Origin: a virus
IMG/VR virus record: IMGVR_UViG_3300032046_000073
Coordinates: 1-41,078 of that record
Direction: 5' to 3' (one strand)
Length of the DNA stretch: 41,078 nucleotides
The position numbers and the translations under genes are program-made. Under the pieces are notes generated by a model. That model was not told the origin of the DNA, did no database searches, and saw only the letters and a program-made list of their open reading frames with translations. The stretch's first letter is position 1; each line of letters starts with the position of its first letter. Below, in pieces: positions 1,344 through 36,782 of the stretch.

Positions 1344-1498
1344 TTTTCCTCTAATTCCTTAAGTTTTTTTTGACAGAGTTCGACCTCTTCTTCCCATAAC
1401 TGCTTTTCTCTGTCATCGTGATAATTCCTTGTTTTGGGCACATTTAAAGCGGCGTCTAATCGTCGTTGCCAATAGATTTTGGGTTCTTGCCATTCCAT
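1340..1498 (-). CDS. Small hypothetical protein (52 aa)
   Basis: ATG at 1498 is preceded by GAGGT at good spacing. The product begins MEWQEPKIYWQRRLDAALNV and ends in a charged helix (EEEVELCQKKLKELEEK). It overlaps the SSB-like gene by 4 bp, so the two are translationally coupled. It follows a 110-nt leader with two strong hairpins (1512-1602). No family recognised. Confidence 0.7.
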   Translation of the reverse strand: MEWQEPKIYWQRRLDAALNVPKTRNYHDDREKQLWEEEVELCQKKLKELEEK

Positions 1499-1511
1499 TT
1501 AAACCTCGCTA

Positions 1512-1570
1512 TGGCTGGCTTGTGATGGGCGGAAGGGAATTTCACCACTTCCGACCAGTCAAACCAGCCA
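1512..1570 (-). other. Nested inverted repeat downstream of the lysin gene
   Basis: TGGCTGG (1512-1518) pairs with CCAGCCA (1564-1570), enclosing CGGAAG/CTTCCG (1530-1535 with 1548-1553). It lies just before the 52-residue gene and next to the terminator-like hairpin at 1575-1602. The outer GGCTGG/CCAGCC stem is shared with the hairpin at 8486-8554. Confidence 0.55.
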
Positions 1571-1574
1571 AGGC

Positions 1575-1602
1575 GAAGCCCCAAGCCTTCCCTTGGGGCT
1601 TC
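1575..1602 (-). terminator. Strong GC-rich hairpin after the lysin gene
   Basis: Perfect 11-bp stem GAAGCCCCAAG (1575-1585) with CTTGGGGCTTC (1592-1602) and a 6-nt loop, 7 nt after the stop of the lytic enzyme gene. There is no clear T run on the minus-strand 3' side, so termination would be partial, or the hairpin protects or processes mRNA. Confidence 0.55.
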
Positions 1603-1608
1603 TAATTG

Positions 1609-2208
1609 TCAACCGATTTCCTGCATATAACCCATTACTTCGGCGATATAATCGAATCGGACGCTTCCGTTATAGGCATATAACTTGCCAAAGGTCCCTT
1701 TGCCAGCATAAATAGGCAATTCGCTTAATTTTTGTGTAATTACTGCGATGCCTTCTTCGTAAGAGCCGAATCCGATCTTGCAGGAAGCCCACCCCCAAGC
1801 ATTGTTTTTGCAAGCGTGCAGGCCCCCAGTTGATTCGGCAAACGAAATCGCCGGTAAAAGTCGCCAATCTATCCCGTGCTCATCGGCTTCTTGGACATAT
1901 TTTGAGCCAAGCCCGACCATTGGCGACTTGCCTTTGGTTTTTTGGTAAAGCCAATCATCAATCTGTTTGGCTCGAGTGTCTTGCTTCTGTTCGGAGGGGG
2001 CCGAAACGGAAACTTTGTAGCACTGAACCGTGTTGTTAGTTACATCTTTTAGACACTGGACTTCGTTGGGATTGGCTTGTCCATAGACGATTACTTGTGA
2101 AGGTGCTTTCTGGTAGTTTTGGGTCATCTTTTGGATTTCAGTATTTAGATTTACTGCGATACCCGAGACGATTGTTAGGGCGACGACGATGCCCTTAAAT
2201 GTATAAAT
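1609..2208 (-). CDS. Lysozyme-fold peptidoglycan hydrolase with signal anchor, apparent ATT start
   Basis: The catalytic part carries the pattern of lytic transglycosylase/glucosaminidase-type enzymes: KYVQEADEHGIDWRLLPAIS, then FAESTGG with the likely catalytic Glu, then NNAWGWASCKIGFGSYEEGI. It should cut cell-wall glycan during entry or lysis. The first ATG is at 2127, but the frame is open for 27 more codons upstream, has no ATG, GTG or TTG there, and encodes a clean signal anchor (YTFKGIVVALTIVSGIAV). An AAGGAGGAG site lies 4-5 nt before an ATT codon at 2208, which I take as the start; the product is then 199 aa. It follows the HNH gene at 2227. The ATT could also be a sequencing error for ATG. 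Confidence 0.75.
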   Translation of the reverse strand: MYTFKGIVVALTIVSGIAVNLNTEIQKMTQNYQKAPSQVIVYGQANPNEVQCLKDVTNNTVQCYKVSVSAPSEQKQDTRAKQIDDWLYQKTKGKSPMVGLGSKYVQEADEHGIDWRLLPAISFAESTGGLHACKNNAWGWASCKIGFGSYEEGIAVITQKLSELPIYAGKGTFGKLYAYNGSVRFDYIAEVMGYMQEIG

Positions 2209-2226
2209 GTTCTCCTCCTTTTTGTT

Positions 2227-2820
2227 TTAAATTGCAGTTTTTATCACCTTGTTTTGAAAGTATTTTATCCAATAACCTCTATTATGATTTGTTTTGGCGT
2301 GGCAAGGACGACAAAGCATAATTAGATTTTCTGGATTACAATTTTTCTTATCGTAATCTATATGATGAATATCAAAGACCCAGTCTCCTTGTAAGTTTCC
2401 ACATATTTGGCAAGTATATTTATCTCGTTCCCTGATACTTCTTTTTAAGGTTTGTGTCCAATTGATTGTATAGGGTTCAAAGGATATTCCACCCCTCCAT
2501 AAATTATTCAATATCCCCCGTCGAGCAGATTGTCTCATCTTTTTTTTCGTTTCCTCTGTATGTTTTCGTCCTAAGTTATCTTTATGTCCCATACTGGCTA
2601 ACCCAATTCTCTTTTTTGTTTCTTTAGAATGTTTTTTACCCTTCATCGGACTTGGTTTCCCTTTGTGAGATTCACTAATTTTCTTTTTCCATTCTTCTGA
2701 TAATTTTTTATTCTTATGAGCTTTACTTATTTTTCTTTTAGATTCATTAGAATGATGTTTACCGAGCATTCCTTTTAAGGGTAAATGACCCTTTTTAAAA
2801 GATGTTGAGCTTTTAGCCAT
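2227..2820 (-). CDS. HNH homing endonuclease with NUMOD3 repeats
   Basis: 197 residues. The first ~110 hold several copies of the NUMOD3 DNA-binding motif (GKHHSNESKRKIS, GKKHSKETKKRIG, GRKHTEETKKKM). An HNH nuclease domain follows: CQICG, then FDIHHIDYDKKNCNPENLI, then LCRPCH. Free-standing enzymes of this kind cut intron- or gene-specific sites and spread their own gene. Start ATG at 2820 overlaps the stop of the 52-aa membrane protein (TAATG). A paralogue with the same tail (GGISF, IHHIDY or VHHIDY, NRSYWIKYF) is at 20852-21397 but is broken by an amber codon. Unlike three other HNH genes here it has no promoter 6 nt upstream. Confidence 0.9.
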   Translation of the reverse strand: MAKSSTSFKKGHLPLKGMLGKHHSNESKRKISKAHKNKKLSEEWKKKISESHKGKPSPMKGKKHSKETKKRIGLASMGHKDNLGRKHTEETKKKMRQSARRGILNNLWRGGISFEPYTINWTQTLKRSIRERDKYTCQICGNLQGDWVFDIHHIDYDKKNCNPENLIMLCRPCHAKTNHNRGYWIKYFQNKVIKTAI

Positions 2821-2978
2821 TATTTTTCCTTATCACAATTTGTTGTTAATCCATAGATGTTTTGACAAATATTATCATTATATTTTTTAACTTCTTGATA
2901 TTTGTTTACAAAATAAAACATATAAAGTAACCCGACAGTGATTAAAGAATAGATTAACAATTTAAGTAGTCTTTTCAT
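2820..2978 (-). CDS. Small single-pass membrane protein (52 aa)
   Basis: ATG at 2978 follows AAAGGAGAGG. Residues 4-25 (LLKLLIYSLITVGLLYMFYF) form one membrane helix; the rest is a short soluble tail with two Cys (NICQNIYGLTTNCDKEK). It starts inside the end of the ribbon-helix-helix gene and overlaps the HNH gene start. It belongs to a promoter-driven unit with the regulator. Function unknown; it is not clearly a holin (one helix) or a spanin (no lipobox). Confidence 0.7.
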   Translation of the reverse strand: MKRLLKLLIYSLITVGLLYMFYFVNKYQEVKKYNDNICQNIYGLTTNCDKEK

Positions 2979-3126
2979 TAAACCTCTCCTTTTTGTTTTG
3001 CAGTTCTTTTAGAATTAGTGTTTCAATCATATTGCTACGATTGCGGTTTTCTGATTTTGCCAATCTATCCAGCTTATCAACAATTTCCTTTGGCAAATTG
3101 AACATTATTACTTTTCTTTCTTTCAT
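2962..3126 (-). CDS. Ribbon-helix-helix DNA-binding protein (CopG/Arc-like)
   Basis: 54 residues, ATG at 3126 with GAGGT upstream. The pattern is that of the ribbon-helix-helix fold: a strand (RKVIMFNLP), helix A (KEIVDKLDRLAKSE), a turn with N-R-N-R-S, and helix B (NMIETLILKEL). Such proteins bind operators as dimers through the beta ribbon. The gene is first behind a consensus promoter (3143-3171), fitting an autoregulated repressor or an early regulator. A second RHH protein is at 5361-5516. Confidence 0.85.
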   Translation of the reverse strand: MKERKVIMFNLPKEIVDKLDRLAKSENRNRSNMIETLILKELQNKKERFNEKTT

Positions 3127-3142
3127 TTTTTACCTCAAAAAT

Positions 3143-3171
3143 ATTATAACATACTTATATATTTTTGTCAA
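3143..3171 (-). promoter_or_regulatory. Consensus sigma70 promoter for the RHH regulator unit
   Basis: On the minus strand TTGACA (3171-3166), a 17-bp spacer and TATAAT (3148-3143), both boxes perfect. The 17-nt gap to the ATG at 3126 holds a GAGGT ribosome site, so this mRNA has a short normal leader. Confidence 0.9.
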
Positions 3172-3228
3172 GTCCCCATACTCCAACCTATTATCTAAAG
3201 GTTATCCACAGCCCCTATTAAGAGTTTG

Positions 3229-3498
3229 TCAAGCCCCCCGCAGTTTTTTAAATACAATCCCCGTCAATTCCCTCCCCGTATGTTCCTTGTCGCCGTATTC
3301 CAGTAGATGATGTGCCAGTGGACAAGTCAAAATTGTCTCGTTAAAAGTCCATAAATCCTTGCGACCTAAATAATATCTTCGCTTCCTTTTGTGGGCGAAC
3401 GAAAGTCCGCTATAACGCCAGCAGTTGTGAGGCAAGTAAAGTTCACAGGAAGTTATATTCTTATCTTCATAGATTTTTTTGAGTTTTAATTTGGTCAT
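3229..3498 (-). CDS. Small HNH-like / Cys-His protein (89 aa)
   Basis: ATG at 3498 overlaps the stop of the preceding gene (ATGA) and follows TTGGAG. The motif layout is CELYLPHNCWRYSGLSFAHKRKRRYYLG, then ILTCPLAHHLLEYG. A Cys-rich start, an A-H-x-x-K-R core and a final C-x-x-x-H-H resemble a small group of HNH-type proteins often annotated only as hypothetical in phages. I judge a nuclease or metal-binding role likely but not proven. It is last in the chain 5516-3229; the region 3127-3228 between it and the RHH gene holds the promoter. Confidence 0.6.
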   Translation of the reverse strand: MTKLKLKKIYEDKNITSCELYLPHNCWRYSGLSFAHKRKRRYYLGRKDLWTFNETILTCPLAHHLLEYGDKEHTGRELTGIVFKKLRGA

Positions 3499-3689
3499 AA
3501 ATTCATCTCCAATTCACCGTATATATGTCTATTCCTAATCGAGAATTTGCCATCTTCTTCTTTTGGCACCTCATCAAAACATTCATTCTTTTTATCCCAT
3601 ATCTGTCGCTCATACTTATAAAAAAGGCAGTGAGGATAGTCATCTGATATAAAATAAAGTCGTTTTTTCACTTGGAGTTTTTTAATCAT
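3495..3689 (-). CDS. Hypothetical protein (64 aa)
   Basis: Starts at ATG 3689, overlapping the stop of the upstream gene, and ends overlapping the start of the downstream one; tight coupling in both directions supports it as real. Basic start (MIKKLQVKKRLYFIS), aromatic-rich middle (HCLFYKYERQIWDKKNE). No family recognised. Confidence 0.65.
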   Translation of the reverse strand: MIKKLQVKKRLYFISDDYPHCLFYKYERQIWDKKNECFDEVPKEEDGKFSIRNRHIYGELEMNL

Positions 3690-3940
3690 CTTCTAAGTGT
3701 CCATAAAAACAAACTAATCTTACAATTTATTTTCTGTTGCTTGCTTCTGGCTTGCTCTATAATTTCCTTAAATTCAGCCAATTTCCTATACATAAAGTCA
3801 AATTTTGTTTTACAAAGTCTTAACCACCGTTTTGGATTTGAATTTGTTACTTCTGCTATTTCGCTACTTAAAAGCCATAGTTTGTTTGTTGGTTTTTTTG
3901 TCAGGTGTTTGTTAGCTAACAAGTTTTTTAGAGAGTCCAT
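3686..3940 (-). CDS. Hypothetical protein (84 aa)
   Basis: ATG at 3940 lies just after the methyltransferase stop with AAAGG upstream. Basic, mostly helical (LLSSEIAEVTNSNPKRWLRL, KLAEFKEIIEQARSKQQKI). The stretch SSEIAEVTNSNPKRWLRLCK could be a helix-turn-helix, but this is only an impression. It forms a coupled chain with its neighbours 5516-3229. Confidence 0.6.
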   Translation of the reverse strand: MDSLKNLLANKHLTKKPTNKLWLLSSEIAEVTNSNPKRWLRLCKTKFDFMYRKLAEFKEIIEQARSKQQKINCKISLFLWTLRR

Positions 3941-3942
3941 AG

Positions 3943-5040
3943 TTAAACCTTTCTCATAATAAATAAATCCCTAAATCCTGCTAACATAAATTTATTCTTT
4001 CGAGCGTTTTCTATATTAGTAGCCGTATGATTTGATTGGTTACCACAATAAGAAACTACAATTCTTTGGACTGGTTCAAAATACTTTTTAAATATCTGGT
4101 AACAATCAAAACCTAAATCAATAAATTGATGCTCGCTGTAGCCGGGATTGTTGCCAATAATAAATCCAGCATATCTCCCCACTTTTAGCTTTTTAGCAGA
4201 ACTTACAGCCAAATTCTCAATCACAGCGATAAAATCCTCATATTCTAATTGTGATAAATCTGTTTTTTCTTGAGTATATTGATTTTTTTTAGCGTCAAAA
4301 TAAGGTGGGTCAAAAAAGATAAAATCAACAGAATTATTTTTTAAAGGTAACCCAGTTGTAATATCGTGTTTAATAATTTCTTTTCTTTGAGGGTTTAAAT
4401 CAAAAGCAACACACCTTCTATTCATATACTTACAAGCGTCAATATCTGTGCCAGAACCACCAAAAACAGATACTATTAAATCATTTTCTTTGGTATAAAA
4501 GTGTAGTAAATTGAGTAATATCTGGCCCGGTATACGACCCGGGTATGGTTGTCCAAATCGTGAGTCGCAAATAGGAAAATGCCAGTCAGTTTGCCACTGG
4601 AGCCAATCGGGCCAATCTTTTTTTATCTCTTCTTTTGACTGGGCGATAAGTCGTCTTAATTCTGCTTGTGGCATATGTTTTTCTTCAGCCAACTCCTTTA
4701 ATTCTCTCTTTTTACTAATTGGCAATTTTGCCTGCATAAGAGCTTCATAGTGCCAAAAAGATAACTGGTCGGTTGACCGACCATCTCTCAATTCAGGAAA
4801 ATTGGCAATGGTCAAATAAATCTTTTTCAAGGAGCTTGCCTCATACTCTAAATCCGGGTGAGTTTCTAAATCTCTGTAAATTTGTTCTTTTGGTGTATTA
4901 TAAGTATTGTGTAATTTTTCTACCTCCTCATAAACAAATCTTCCTAAATCAAAAGTGCTTTTAGCGAACCTGTTAATCCCAACAACAATCTCTTTAATTG
5001 ATGTCTGATAAGATATAATCCCAGCTTGGTTCTGTTTCAA
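3943..5040 (-). CDS. DNA adenine/cytosine-N4 methyltransferase with long helical N-terminus
   Basis: 365 residues. SAM-binding motif I is seen as VSVFGGSGTDIDAC (about 191-204), followed by CVAFDLNP, and the catalytic DPPY motif is at 244-247 (FIFFDPPYFDA). The order, SAM motif before DPPY, differs from the beta-class enzyme at 7151. Residues 1-140 are helical and rich in basic residues (SSLKKIYLTIANFPELRDGR, AELRRLIAQSKEEIKK) and may recognise DNA. It should methylate an exocyclic amine of A or C. No restriction enzyme is next to it, so host-restriction evasion is plausible. Start codon TTG at 5040 is supported by AGGAGG 5 nt upstream; it overlaps the previous gene by 47 bp. Confidence 0.85.
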   Translation of the reverse strand: MKQNQAGIISYQTSIKEIVVGINRFAKSTFDLGRFVYEEVEKLHNTYNTPKEQIYRDLETHPDLEYEASSLKKIYLTIANFPELRDGRSTDQLSFWHYEALMQAKLPISKKRELKELAEEKHMPQAELRRLIAQSKEEIKKDWPDWLQWQTDWHFPICDSRFGQPYPGRIPGQILLNLLHFYTKENDLIVSVFGGSGTDIDACKYMNRRCVAFDLNPQRKEIIKHDITTGLPLKNNSVDFIFFDPPYFDAKKNQYTQEKTDLSQLEYEDFIAVIENLAVSSAKKLKVGRYAGFIIGNNPGYSEHQFIDLGFDCYQIFKKYFEPVQRIVVSYCGNQSNHTATNIENARKNKFMLAGFRDLFIMRKV

Positions 5041-34022: not shown

Positions 34023-36053
34023 TCAAATAGAAATACCATCATCATATTTATCTTCTTGGCTGGCGTGTTTTTGAATCTGAACTAAAATCCTTTCTTGTGG
34101 CGTTAAAACCTTTTCTGTCTCCCAATCTTTTGGTCTTAATGATTCCATCCCATATCTAATTGAATTATGCACTAAAATATCGTTTGCAAAGTATTCGTTG
34201 CAGTCTTCAACAGTAATATCATAAACAGTATATTTATCTTTTAACCCTTGCTTTGTTACTACACTTTCGAGAACAGTATGTGGTATTTTCGTATTTATTT
34301 GATATAAATTGTTTGCTACAAAGTGGACATTTTTTCTCGACAAAATCAAGTTTATTACTTCTTCGCCATTGACTCTTGCATCTGTTGGAGCAAAATCTAT
34401 CCTTTTCTCTAAGGGTATAACACGGGAATGTTCTCCCACAACTATCGCATTGTTTATTAACTGGTTTTCGCTCTTTCCAATGATTTTTGCCGTGAATTCT
34501 TTTATCAATGAGTTCAAGATTTTTAATTCTATTATCAAGTTTATTCCCATTTTTATGATGAACATAAAACCCATTAGGAATTTTTCCAAAATTATCTTCC
34601 CATATTTGGCGATGTAAAAAATTAGTCCCATTATAGAAATAATATTTTCCCTTGCTGGGATATATAAAATATTTTCTTCCTTTGTGTTCTCTTGTTCTTT
34701 CCATACTTCAAGTATATCACCATATCTAATATCTGTCAAGCATTGCCAACCACGATTTTTAGTCCACACCTGATGTTTGGGTGTGCCAATCAATTTTCTA
34801 CCACTTGATAAAGATATTTTTATAACATTAGCATTCTTTTTAACCAACCAAGAATCTTTTACCTTTTTAAGTCCTTTTCTTGTGTAAACCAAATCTCCTA
34901 TCTTAATATCTTTAACTAACCTATCACCATCAATGGTTTTAACTAAAGTATCACCCGTGAGACAATCCATCGGGTTTGACCATTCGTGAATTGTATCATC
35001 AGGAACATTAATTACTTTGCCATTAATATCAGTTTTAAATAGATAATTTCTATATGCCTTGATTGTTTTGACACTATTTTTTGTGATTGATATTCTTTGA
35101 GATTGGACAAAATCTATTCCCCGACTCACTGAACCTTGACCTTTAACAGAACCGATAATGTTAATTCCATAACTTCTAATCTCATCGATTGACTTCGGCT
35201 CGGCGCTATCAGCAATCACAAGAGCTTTATCTAAATTATTTAAAGTATCGGCAATAACTTTATTAGAAATACCCTTTTGATATAGTTTCTCATCGATAAT
35301 ATATCCCCCATTATAATAATAAATTGCCTCGATTACCGCCGGGTCGATTGAATAACCGAAATCCAGTCCATAGCGTTCCAATCTTGCCTCGTGAGGCACT
35401 TCATCAATAATCCGCCAACCCTTGTAAATTCTGCCCTCAAGCTCGCCTAACTGCCCCAAACCATAAACCTGCCACCAGTTCTTATTGTTGCGCCTTGACT
35501 CAATCGACTGGATGATATTTGGATCAAGCCCCTCATTGTCAAGATAGGTAAGAGTTAAAAAATCAATATCATTATTCGGCATAACTTCGGTATACATCCA
35601 ATATTCGTGAGTTGGATTACTGTCTACCCAGATAATTTTTTTAGTTCTAACCTCTAAATGAGTATAAACATCAAAAGGAATATTATTACCCTCATTTATA
35701 AACAAAACATCCCTTCTTGGGCCACGAACTTTCGCTGGTTGATCTGCCGAAAAAAATTCTAATTTAGATCCGCCCTTAAATGTGTAAATAAAATCAGTTT
35801 TGTTCCAATTATTATCCTGAAAATAGCCGTGAGCGGTCATTATATTAACAAAATCGCGAATTGCCCCCTTTTTTAGATGCGGAAGTGTTTCCGAAACAAC
35901 ACTTACCATTTCTTGTTTTAAACTTTGGCAATAATCTATCAACCACATCAGTATAGATATAGTTTTACTTGCTCCTGTGCCACCATTCACAAATCTAATA
36001 CGCTTTTTTAACTTTATTATTTTTTTTAATGCGGTGGTTTCTCTAAATATCAT
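34023..36053 (-). CDS. terL: Terminase large subunit containing an intein
   Basis: 676 residues as translated. ATPase: Walker A-type FVNGGTGASKTISIL (about 21-35) and Walker B DVLFINEG (115-122). Nuclease: GLDFGYSIDPAV (Asp231), ALVIADSAEPKSID (Asp282) and, after splicing, NPMD/SIRYGMESLR, the third metal-site motif. Residues 364-630 are an intein; the mature protein is 409 residues. It packages DNA by ATP-driven translocation and cuts the concatemer. ATG overlaps the stop of the HNH gene at 36050. Inside the intein another gene is encoded in a different frame (34234-34704). Confidence 0.92.
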   Translation of the reverse strand: MIFRETTALKKIIKLKKRIRFVNGGTGASKTISILMWLIDYCQSLKQEMVSVVSETLPHLKKGAIRDFVNIMTAHGYFQDNNWNKTDFIYTFKGGSKLEFFSADQPAKVRGPRRDVLFINEGNNIPFDVYTHLEVRTKKIIWVDSNPTHEYWMYTEVMPNNDIDFLTLTYLDNEGLDPNIIQSIESRRNNKNWWQVYGLGQLGELEGRIYKGWRIIDEVPHEARLERYGLDFGYSIDPAVIEAIYYYNGGYIIDEKLYQKGISNKVIADTLNNLDKALVIADSAEPKSIDEIRSYGINIIGSVKGQGSVSRGIDFVQSQRISITKNSVKTIKAYRNYLFKTDINGKVINVPDDTIHEWSNPMDCLTGDTLVKTIDGDRLVKDIKIGDLVYTRKGLKKVKDSWLVKKNANVIKISLSSGRKLIGTPKHQVWTKNRGWQCLTDIRYGDILEVWKEQENTKEENILYIPARENIISIMGLIFYIAKYGKIILEKFLMGFMFIIKMGINLIIELKILNSLIKEFTAKIIGKSENQLINNAIVVGEHSRVIPLEKRIDFAPTDARVNGEEVINLILSRKNVHFVANNLYQINTKIPHTVLESVVTKQGLKDKYTVYDITVEDCNEYFANDILVHNSIRYGMESLRPKDWETEKVLTPQERILVQIQKHASQEDKYDDGISI
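34234..34704 (-). CDS. HNH homing endonuclease nested in the intein, different frame
   Basis: 156 residues: HRQIWEDNFGKIPNGFYVHH, then KNGNKLDNRIKNLELIDKRI form the HNH core; two zinc ribbons follow (QCDSCGRTFPCYTLREKDRF with CSNRC, and KKCPLCSKQFISNKYE with CSRKC). It runs -1 relative to the intein, starts at ATG 34704 right after an in-frame TGA, and stops at 34234 at the beginning of block F. It thus occupies exactly the endonuclease slot of the intein. It has its own perfect promoter 6 nt upstream and should be leaderless. Confidence 0.88.
   Translation of the reverse strand: MERTREHKGRKYFIYPSKGKYYFYNGTNFLHRQIWEDNFGKIPNGFYVHHKNGNKLDNRIKNLELIDKRIHGKNHWKERKPVNKQCDSCGRTFPCYTLREKDRFCSNRCKSQWRRSNKLDFVEKKCPLCSKQFISNKYENTTYCSRKCSNKARVKR
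34711..34739 (-). promoter_or_regulatory. Promoter inside intein block B for the nested HNH gene
   Basis: TTGACA (34739-34734), 17 bp, TATACT (34716-34711), 6 nt, ATG (34704). In the intein frame the same bases encode L-T in QCLTDIRYGDILE, so the promoter is embedded in conserved intein coding sequence. Confidence 0.9.
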
Positions 36054-36439
36054 TGTTGTAAATATTCTATCGCTTTATTTAATAATTTAGGATTGTCTTT
36101 AAAACTACCGAGACCCCAATTACAGCACTGACATAAAAGACCTCTTATTTTGTCGGTCTTATGACAATGATCAATTGATAACTTCTTGCCATTTTCAGGA
36201 TTACCACATATTGCACATAGTCCATTTTGTTTTTTGTAGAGTTGATTATATTCATCAAGAGAAATACCAAACTTCTTTTTTAACCTCATGTCCGTAAATT
36301 TATCAAATGTCTCTATATAATATTTCCTTCTCTTATTAATGTTAATCTTTCTGTAATCTCGACTATAAGCAATTTTTTTATCTTTATGATCAAGATAATA
36401 TTGACGATAATATTCGGCATTATATTTCTTTTTTTGCAT
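36050..36439 (-). CDS. Endonuclease VII-like HNH protein between terminase genes
   Basis: 129 residues from ATG 36439 (GGAGG, 6-7 nt upstream; a GTG at 36445 is less likely). The N-terminal half is basic and Tyr-rich (KKKYNAEYYRQYYLDHKDKK). The C-terminal half matches recombination endonuclease VII-type proteins: YNQLYKKQNGLCAICGNPEN, KLSIDHCHKTDKIRGLLCQC, CNWGLGSFKDNP. It may resolve branched DNA before packaging or act as a free-standing homing enzyme; the place between small and large terminase, like other HNH genes here, fits either. Confidence 0.85.
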   Translation of the reverse strand: MQKKKYNAEYYRQYYLDHKDKKIAYSRDYRKININKRRKYYIETFDKFTDMRLKKKFGISLDEYNQLYKKQNGLCAICGNPENGKKLSIDHCHKTDKIRGLLCQCCNWGLGSFKDNPKLLNKAIEYLQQ

Positions 36440-36782
36440 CTCCACCCTCCGATTCTTTCACTTCTATTCTCTTAACACTTACCCCTCCTAATATTGGAAT
36501 AATTATTGCATTATCTATCGGTATATTGGGAGCAGAACCTTGAGGCATACCATCAATCATCTTCCATAAAAGCTCTTTCATTCGGGGATTATGTAAATAA
36601 TAATCAGCAATATCATTAGCCATCTTTGGATCTGCTTCCAATTTCGCAATAATTATATTTTTAAAATTAGTGAAAGTATGAACGCTACCTTTTTTCTTTC
36701 CTCCAATATTGGGATGACCCTTTACAAATCTTCCGGTTCTATCCCTTACCATTATTCCCCCAGTATTTATTGGTTCATTCAC
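36420..36782 (-). CDS. Probable terminase small subunit
   Basis: 120 residues from GTG 36782 (GGAG 7 nt upstream); ATG 36752 is an alternative. RDRTGRFVKGHPNIGGKKKG resembles the basic N-terminus of many small terminases and DUF5681-type proteins; TFTNFKNIIIAKLEADPKMA, LHNPRMKELLWKMIDGMPQG continues in the same way. Position directly before the large subunit supports the call. It would recognise the packaging site. Confidence 0.65.
   Translation of the reverse strand: MNEPINTGGIMVRDRTGRFVKGHPNIGGKKKGSVHTFTNFKNIIIAKLEADPKMANDIADYYLHNPRMKELLWKMIDGMPQGSAPNIPIDNAIIIPILGGVSVKRIEVKESEGGDAKKEI

Follow-up and report, generated by a model that had tools for sequence, protein, structure and literature searches.

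Inteins are generally taught as splicing domains into which an endonuclease domain has been grafted in frame. Our study concerns an intein in the large terminase subunit gene (terL) of a virus; the stretch of DNA analysed, all 41,078 nucleotides of IMG/VR record IMGVR_UViG_3300032046_000073, is called the window, and its positions are used throughout. Canonical mobile inteins, whose endonuclease is a LAGLIDADG or HNH domain, share with the window intein Cys1, the TxxH motif, a terminal His-Asn, Ser or Cys at position +1, insertion at a conserved active-site motif, and an endonuclease slot between blocks B and F. However, the canonical endonuclease is an in-frame domain, whereas that of the window is a separate gene in another frame, and what the intein frame reads through the slot is a non-homologous linker.

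Three other described systems resemble this arrangement in part. Fractured genes, reported as split inteins whose halves are separated by a free-standing homing endonuclease (Dassa et al. 2009), resemble the window in having the endonuclease on a gene of its own between intein halves, but these halves are on separate genes, while the window has one continuous open reading frame (ORF) overlapped by the nuclease gene; in split relatives that carry the same HNH family the frame is no longer open. The endonuclease ORFs of group I introns are likewise independent genes in a removable insert; removal of the window insert would be by protein splicing, so that the host frame must stay translatable, a rule that does not apply to group I intron ORFs. 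The hidden HNH of ShiLan, which is out of frame and starts 17 nt into its insert at offset 2 (PMC11855218; also PMC9957025, PMC12613952), shares with the window its zinc fingers, an open host frame and the same frame relation. The ShiLan insert has no splicing domain and is thought to remain in a non-essential protein (PMC11855218), whereas the window HNH lies in a recognisable intein within an essential gene, in a layout that extends across a broad family. In the literature that we searched, which did not include preprints and most subscription journals, we found no description of a nuclease encoded out of frame within an intein. As a group, out-of-frame HNH genes inside inteins are apparently undescribed, and the mechanism that we propose for them is inferred.

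Results

A complete HNH gene lies out of frame within a terminase intein

The terminase domains and an intein splicing domain (Intein_splicing, Pfam E 3e-15) are found in the same large ORF, where the intein extends from Cys364 to Asn630 in TerL numbering (Table 1). The splicing residues that identify an intein by sequence are all present: C1, T61-P-K-H64 of block B, H266-N267 and S+1. The AlphaFold model agrees with a Hint fold, with residues 1-90 and ~231-267 at pLDDT 95-98, and the dual-coded linker (residues 91-230) is modelled at pLDDT 44-76. The closest solved intein, both by sequence and by fold, is gp41-1 (Foldseek, TM 0.88 of target), which reportedly comes from the study of Dassa et al. 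2009.

Table 1. Features of the terL locus in the window.
Feature	Position	Strand	Evidence or remarks
terL, large terminase subunit precursor with intein	34023..36053	-	676 aa; Terminase_3, Terminase_3C, Intein_splicing; PHROG terminase large subunit
N-extein, TerL residues 1-363, ending ...HEWSNPMD at nuclease motif III	34965..36053	-	
Intein, 267 residues, Cys1 to Asn267, followed by Ser+1	34164..34964	-	PF14890, TIGR01445, TIGR01443
Intein N-terminal splicing half, blocks A-B, read in a single frame only	34704..34964	-	TIGR01445; pLDDT 95-98
Stop codon (TGA) of the HNH frame, two codons ahead of its ATG	34708..34710	-	
Nested HNH endonuclease gene, 156 aa plus stop, ATG start, -1 frame relative to the intein	34234..34704	-	HNH_3 (PF13392) E 1e-15; phrog_15471 E 4e-22; pLDDT 93.5
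Dual-coded stretch: stop-free linker (intein frame) and nuclease (HNH frame)	34232..34703	-	
HNH_3 catalytic domain, HNH residues 29-72	34489..34620	-	His49, His50, Asn62 and His71 conserved
Two zinc-ribbon motifs, Cys86/89/105/109 and Cys126/129/144/148	34261..34449	-	Invariant or nearly invariant alignment columns
Intein C-terminal splicing half, blocks F-G, ...TVYDITVEDCNEYFANDILVHN	34164..34229	-	TIGR01443
C-extein, Ser+1: SIRYGMESLRP...	34026..34163	-	46 TerL homologues continuous here (NPMD joined to A/SIRYG)

The codons of the nested gene begin at phase 2 of the TerL codons (offset 2). Its frame opens with TGA (34710-34708), AGT and ATG (34704), and a stop so close ahead of the ATG, two codons away, speaks against translation entering the HNH frame from upstream; its own stop codon (34236-34234) lies immediately before block F. 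The HNH_3 domain and the catalytic His/Asn/His are present, with H49, H50, N62 and H71 invariant, as is required of an HNH_3 nuclease by sequence. The nearest solved nuclease relative is I-HmuI (1u3e), although a Foldseek search with the HNH model gave only a weak match to it (E 0.03). With 156 aa against ~200 in most relatives, the window HNH lacks the segment between HNH and zinc ribbon, and its activity could therefore be altered. There is no clear Shine-Dalgarno sequence, the best candidate being a weak GGTGAT 11 nt upstream.

The locus thus has one continuous TerL-intein-TerL frame with intact splicing residues and a complete -1 frame HNH gene with its own start. An earlier note on this DNA, made from the sequence alone, had proposed an HNH/zinc-ribbon gene in the -1 frame of the intein slot, starting just after an in-frame TGA and ending at the start of block F, with the intein frame open for 157 codons. 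All of these points held, the frame relation and the domain being confirmed by the ORF map and Pfam.

Two genes upstream of terL were also noted. A free-standing endonuclease VII-like HNH gene (36050-36445, minus strand; PF02945, E 2e-25) is directly upstream and shares 4 bases with the terL start; the next gene upstream of it (36420-36782) is perhaps terS.

Openness of the intein frame in the window

The intein frame has 0 stops over all 157 codons, and the third forward frame has 26 across the HNH region. The earlier note had put the probability of such openness by luck at about 5e-4, which proved overstated for the window: synonymous shuffling of the HNH codons gives 1.8 expected stops and P(0)=0.054, and shuffling of codon order gives P(0)=0.011. 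At this offset an intein-frame codon consists of HNH bases 2 and 3 and the next base 1, and a stop requires xTA followed by A or G, or xTG followed by A. Lys, Asn, Arg and Cys are abundant in the HNH protein, and its gene has few of the xTA/xTG codons that can form stops; the intein frame is intrinsically stop-poor here because the amino acids of the HNH and its own codons rarely yield stops in it. Openness of the window frame by itself is consequently weak evidence for dual coding, and the 157 open codons alone were rejected as proof of it for a single window.

Out-of-frame HNH genes characterize a clade of inteins

A scan of genome contigs with a single protein gave no match; searches with an HNH alignment returned 80 viral loci and 65 loci from GTDB genomes (individual loci are given L numbers below). 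To sort them, we built our own profiles of the HNH and of each intein half, and left L114, a near-copy of L113, out of the counts. As a result, we identified 82 loci in which two intein halves share one continuous frame and flank an HNH at offset 2, and 27 free-standing genes; the remainder are split or incomplete. In the 82 nested-open loci the intein frame has 0 stops, compared with 199 predicted by synonymous codon shuffling, and when they are clustered at <50% identity, the 58 clusters contain 0 against 141 expected.

It is important to note that openness helped to define the 82-locus set, and three unconditioned views were therefore taken besides. Where both halves are in the same frame at offset 2, the stop counts are 0 in the 82 loci and then 7, 7, 12, 12, 12, 14 and 14, with none between 1 and 6; such all-or-none counts are expected if an unbroken TerL must stay open. 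Free-standing HNH relatives read in the same frame have 192 stops, against 186 expected. NTA codons make up 1.8% of codons in nested genes versus 4.7% in free ones, and in nested genes NTA never precedes A or G and NTG never precedes A, while such pairs are common in free genes. A search blind to the HNH, using only the intein N half, returned 79 loci, 69 of which are unbroken inteins with an HNH at offset 2; the other ten are seven mini-inteins (126-165 residues), two loci running off the contig end and one with another insert (L269). The 82 and the 69 loci were not deduplicated between searches, and some of the 79 repeat earlier ones. Among these 82 and 69 loci, no in-frame HNH of the nested family was found in an unbroken intein.

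These inteins are well conserved in their splicing residues, with Cys1 in 82/82 nested loci and TxxH in 81/82, and PF14890 was detected in 58/61 host proteins scanned. These 61 proteins are nearly all TerL (58 matching phrog_2), and the commonest insertion site, as in the window, precedes the DAxRY motif of the TerL nuclease. Nesting at offset 2 also occurs in L028, L048, L049 and L050; in L028 the intein is at a different TerL site (between GYS and C) and an HNH of the same kind is nested in it at the same offset. Among named phages, the layout is present in Acinetobacter phage Highwayman, Tetrasphaera phage TJE1 and Rhodobacteraceae phage LS06-2018-MD07. At the insertion site of the window, 46 IMG/VR TerL relatives, L028 among them, are continuous, which indicates that the site is usually empty.

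Seven members of the clade (L216, L217, L220, L227, L248, L249 and L250) are mini-inteins of 126-165 aa without an HNH and constitute natural no-insert controls; the linker of L220 is maybe an HNH remnant.

One locus departs from the usual frame relation. In L181, a TerL intein of a Planctomycetota MAG (1536-3605), the HNH (2977-3495) is in the other forward frame, at offset 1. The frame used by this intein has 0 stops against 8.2 expected, and the frame usual in the other loci has 6 against 5.3; L181 being open in its own frame and not in the usual one, openness follows whichever frame the intein uses. This locus apparently represents a separate origin of nesting.

These results show that the open intein frame is far beyond chance once homologues are counted, and that the family-wide absence of stops is confined to loci whose HNH is enclosed by an unbroken intein. 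Dual coding, understood as a second frame kept open beyond what the codons of the first would give, is thus met at the family level and by L181. The out-of-frame HNH layout is characteristic of an intein clade and not unique to the window; its interpretation as a one-off was rejected on account of the relatives with the same nesting.

Selection and inferred expression of the nested gene

In nine close pairs of loci, substitutions fall at HNH codon positions in the order pos3 > pos1 >= pos2, and amino-acid identity is higher for the HNH than for the linker in all nine (e.g. 0.73 vs 0.49). The HNH catalytic and zinc residues are kept at 29-45% identity. Selection on the HNH protein sequence is shown by these data; the close pairs further support that the linker is constrained mainly to avoid stops.

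A start codon is present near the end of the intein N half in 81/82 nested genes, and most members have an upstream stop within ~20 codons of it. A strong Shine-Dalgarno sequence precedes an early start codon in 41/82 nested genes, compared with 10% per control position, the controls being random positions and not matched start codons; about half of the nested family has no strong Shine-Dalgarno sequence.

The remaining claims of the earlier note can be assessed against these comparisons. True dual coding by a separate nuclease gene, distinct from split inteins, was supported by the comparative tests, as was its proposal that the linker is open only so that terminase can be completed. Its description of the linker as hydrophobic and of low complexity was correct in part: the linker is hydrophobic in the AT-rich window, but in general the linker reflects the HNH sequence read in a shifted frame and is, for example, Thr-rich where it faces the HNH motif. 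The checks and refuting conditions that the note had suggested gave three results. First, homologues with a broken intein frame do exist, and where both halves could be read, IntN and IntC are in separate ORFs. Second, sites without the insert were found, as empty terL sites in 46 relatives and as HNH-less mini-inteins in the clade. Third, substitutions considered in both frames favour the HNH frame as the selected protein in the nine close pairs.

Discussion

Proposed explanation

We consider it most likely that a mobile, cis-splicing intein occupies TerL nuclease motif III and that its homing endonuclease is encoded by an overlapping gene of its own, translated from an internal start; that the intein splices, that the nuclease is made and that it cuts are inferences without experiment. 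Ribosomes reading the full terL frame would produce a precursor from which the intein excises itself, its linker being discarded, while other ribosomes would initiate at the internal ATG and produce the HNH nuclease. The nuclease would cut the intein-less terL motif in co-infecting phages, and repair would copy the intein and the HNH gene together. In such an arrangement the HNH would be freed from fusion to the intein, and the intein would serve as an excisable shelter in an essential gene. Nearly all members use one frame relation (intein codon from HNH bases 2, 3 and 1'), because only that one is naturally stop-poor for a protein rich in K, N, C and R. The homing function is inferred from the family and its patchy distribution, with no demonstrated cut site.

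Alternative explanations

Four alternatives were considered very unlikely. In the first, the HNH is a packaging nuclease working with the terminase, like HK97 gp74, and not a homing enzyme. In its favour, the hosts are nearly all TerL and free-standing relatives are often beside terL (L053-L056); HNH nucleases that act with terminase have been discussed, and packaging and homing roles need not exclude each other (PMC10448857). Against it, the intein and HNH are absent at the window site from 45 homologous TerLs, so packaging can proceed without them in this phage group, and the closest relative of known structure, I-HmuI, is a homing endonuclease.

The second alternative is a dead nuclease, once in frame and moved out by compensating frameshifts, now decaying as a relic in a working intein. 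The window HNH is indeed shorter than most relatives, and the clade has HNH-less mini-inteins. However, the catalytic and zinc residues are conserved, changes fall at HNH codon position 3, identity is higher for the HNH than for the linker, the model has a pLDDT of 93.5, starts are present in 81/82 with enriched Shine-Dalgarno sites, and no in-frame ancestor was found.

According to the third, programmed -1 frameshifting yields a TerL-IntN-HNH fusion without internal initiation. Relative to the intein the HNH is in the -1 frame, into which most bacterial frameshift signals lead, and half of the nested genes lack a strong Shine-Dalgarno sequence. Nevertheless, the window TGA two codons before the ATG would confine upstream slippage to a very short stretch, in most members a stop lies no more than ~20 codons ahead of the start, Shine-Dalgarno sequences occur in 50% vs ~10% per position, and the L181 HNH is in the other frame, beyond the reach of a -1 shift.

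The fourth is a split intein, or fractured gene, with a free-standing nuclease between halves that splice in trans. Relatives so arranged exist (Vibrio phages L051/L052, and L147, L153, L154, L157, L159, L160, L170 and others), and the nearest solved intein is gp41-1; in the window, however, N-extein, IntN, linker, IntC and C-extein form one uninterrupted ORF, with 0 stops vs 7-14 in same-frame split relatives.

Finally, a pair of sequencing or assembly frameshifts that gives a conventional in-frame HNH intein a false out-of-frame appearance is all but excluded: two single-base errors flanking the HNH would suffice in one assembly, but 82 loci from IMG/VR, GTDB genomes, Highwayman, TJE1 and LS06-2018-MD07 all have offset 2, as do the loci from the intein-only search, the HNH begins at a start codon of its own preceded by an in-frame TGA, and the set contains no in-frame form.

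Significance

A cis-splicing intein with an overlapping nuclease gene, as preferred here, would belong to a group, common in phage terminase genes, in which the intein protein never includes the mobility enzyme. This is among the cleaner natural cases of dual coding and has a built-in control, in that the free-standing or split-intein HNH loses the open second frame. The TerL records of TJE1 and Highwayman annotate one plain gene, and the nested layout explains why annotation misses these nucleases. This layout also connects cis inteins, split inteins and free-standing homing genes, and it provides inteins in which a long, unrelated linker is tolerated, a property of use in engineering.

Split, free-standing and antisense relatives

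The same HNH family was found between the halves of split TerL inteins in L051, L052, L091, L097, L111, L115, L116, L120, L147, L148, L153, L154, L157, L159, L160, L162, L170, L179 and L180. In these split relatives the IntN ORF ends near the HNH start and IntC is in a second ORF that overlaps or follows the HNH end; the overlap with the HNH 3' end is often at offset 2, and the set provides candidate natural split inteins. Free-standing relatives of the nested HNH lie beside terL in phages of Pseudomonas, Exiguobacterium, Brevundimonas and Acinetobacter, either between terL and portal (L054, L055 and L056) or upstream of terS (L053); the L053 HNH and the one nested in the Highwayman intein share 50% identity.

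On the HNH tree, the nested, split and free states are mixed. Parsimony gives 17 changes between nested and not nested when incomplete loci are assigned by stop counts, and five changes are forced by well-supported branches for the fully nested group. Because of its long branches the tree can neither date nor root the switches, the placement of the window in it is unsupported, and no direction is given. A bolder reading, which we regard only as possible, is that nested out-of-frame endonucleases are a general intein lifestyle and a route to natural split inteins: one stop in the linker, tolerable if the halves trans-splice, would turn a cis intein into a fractured gene. This reading rests on the occurrence of the same HNH family in nested, split and free states mixed on one tree, and on unrelated nucleases nested antisense (L269, L284).

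The latter two loci merit a separate description. L269 (same contig as L281; 1160-2326) is a Mu gpF-like head gene with an unbroken intein that contains a DUF559/Vsr-like zinc-finger nuclease of 276 aa (1361-2191, minus strand). L284 (2869-4059) is a head-morphogenesis gene intein with the same layout, whose nuclease ORF (2944-4005, plus strand) is 42% identical to that of L269. Both nucleases are wholly inside the intein, on the opposite strand and codon-aligned antisense, with the intein frame open. Antisense stops need TTA, CTA or TCA, none of which occurs in the L269 or L284 gene (36 Leu and Ser codons each). L284 is GC-rich and its openness could be due to chance, which makes L269 the better case. 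As an aside to the main finding, this antisense nesting strengthens the principle of nested nuclease genes in inteins.
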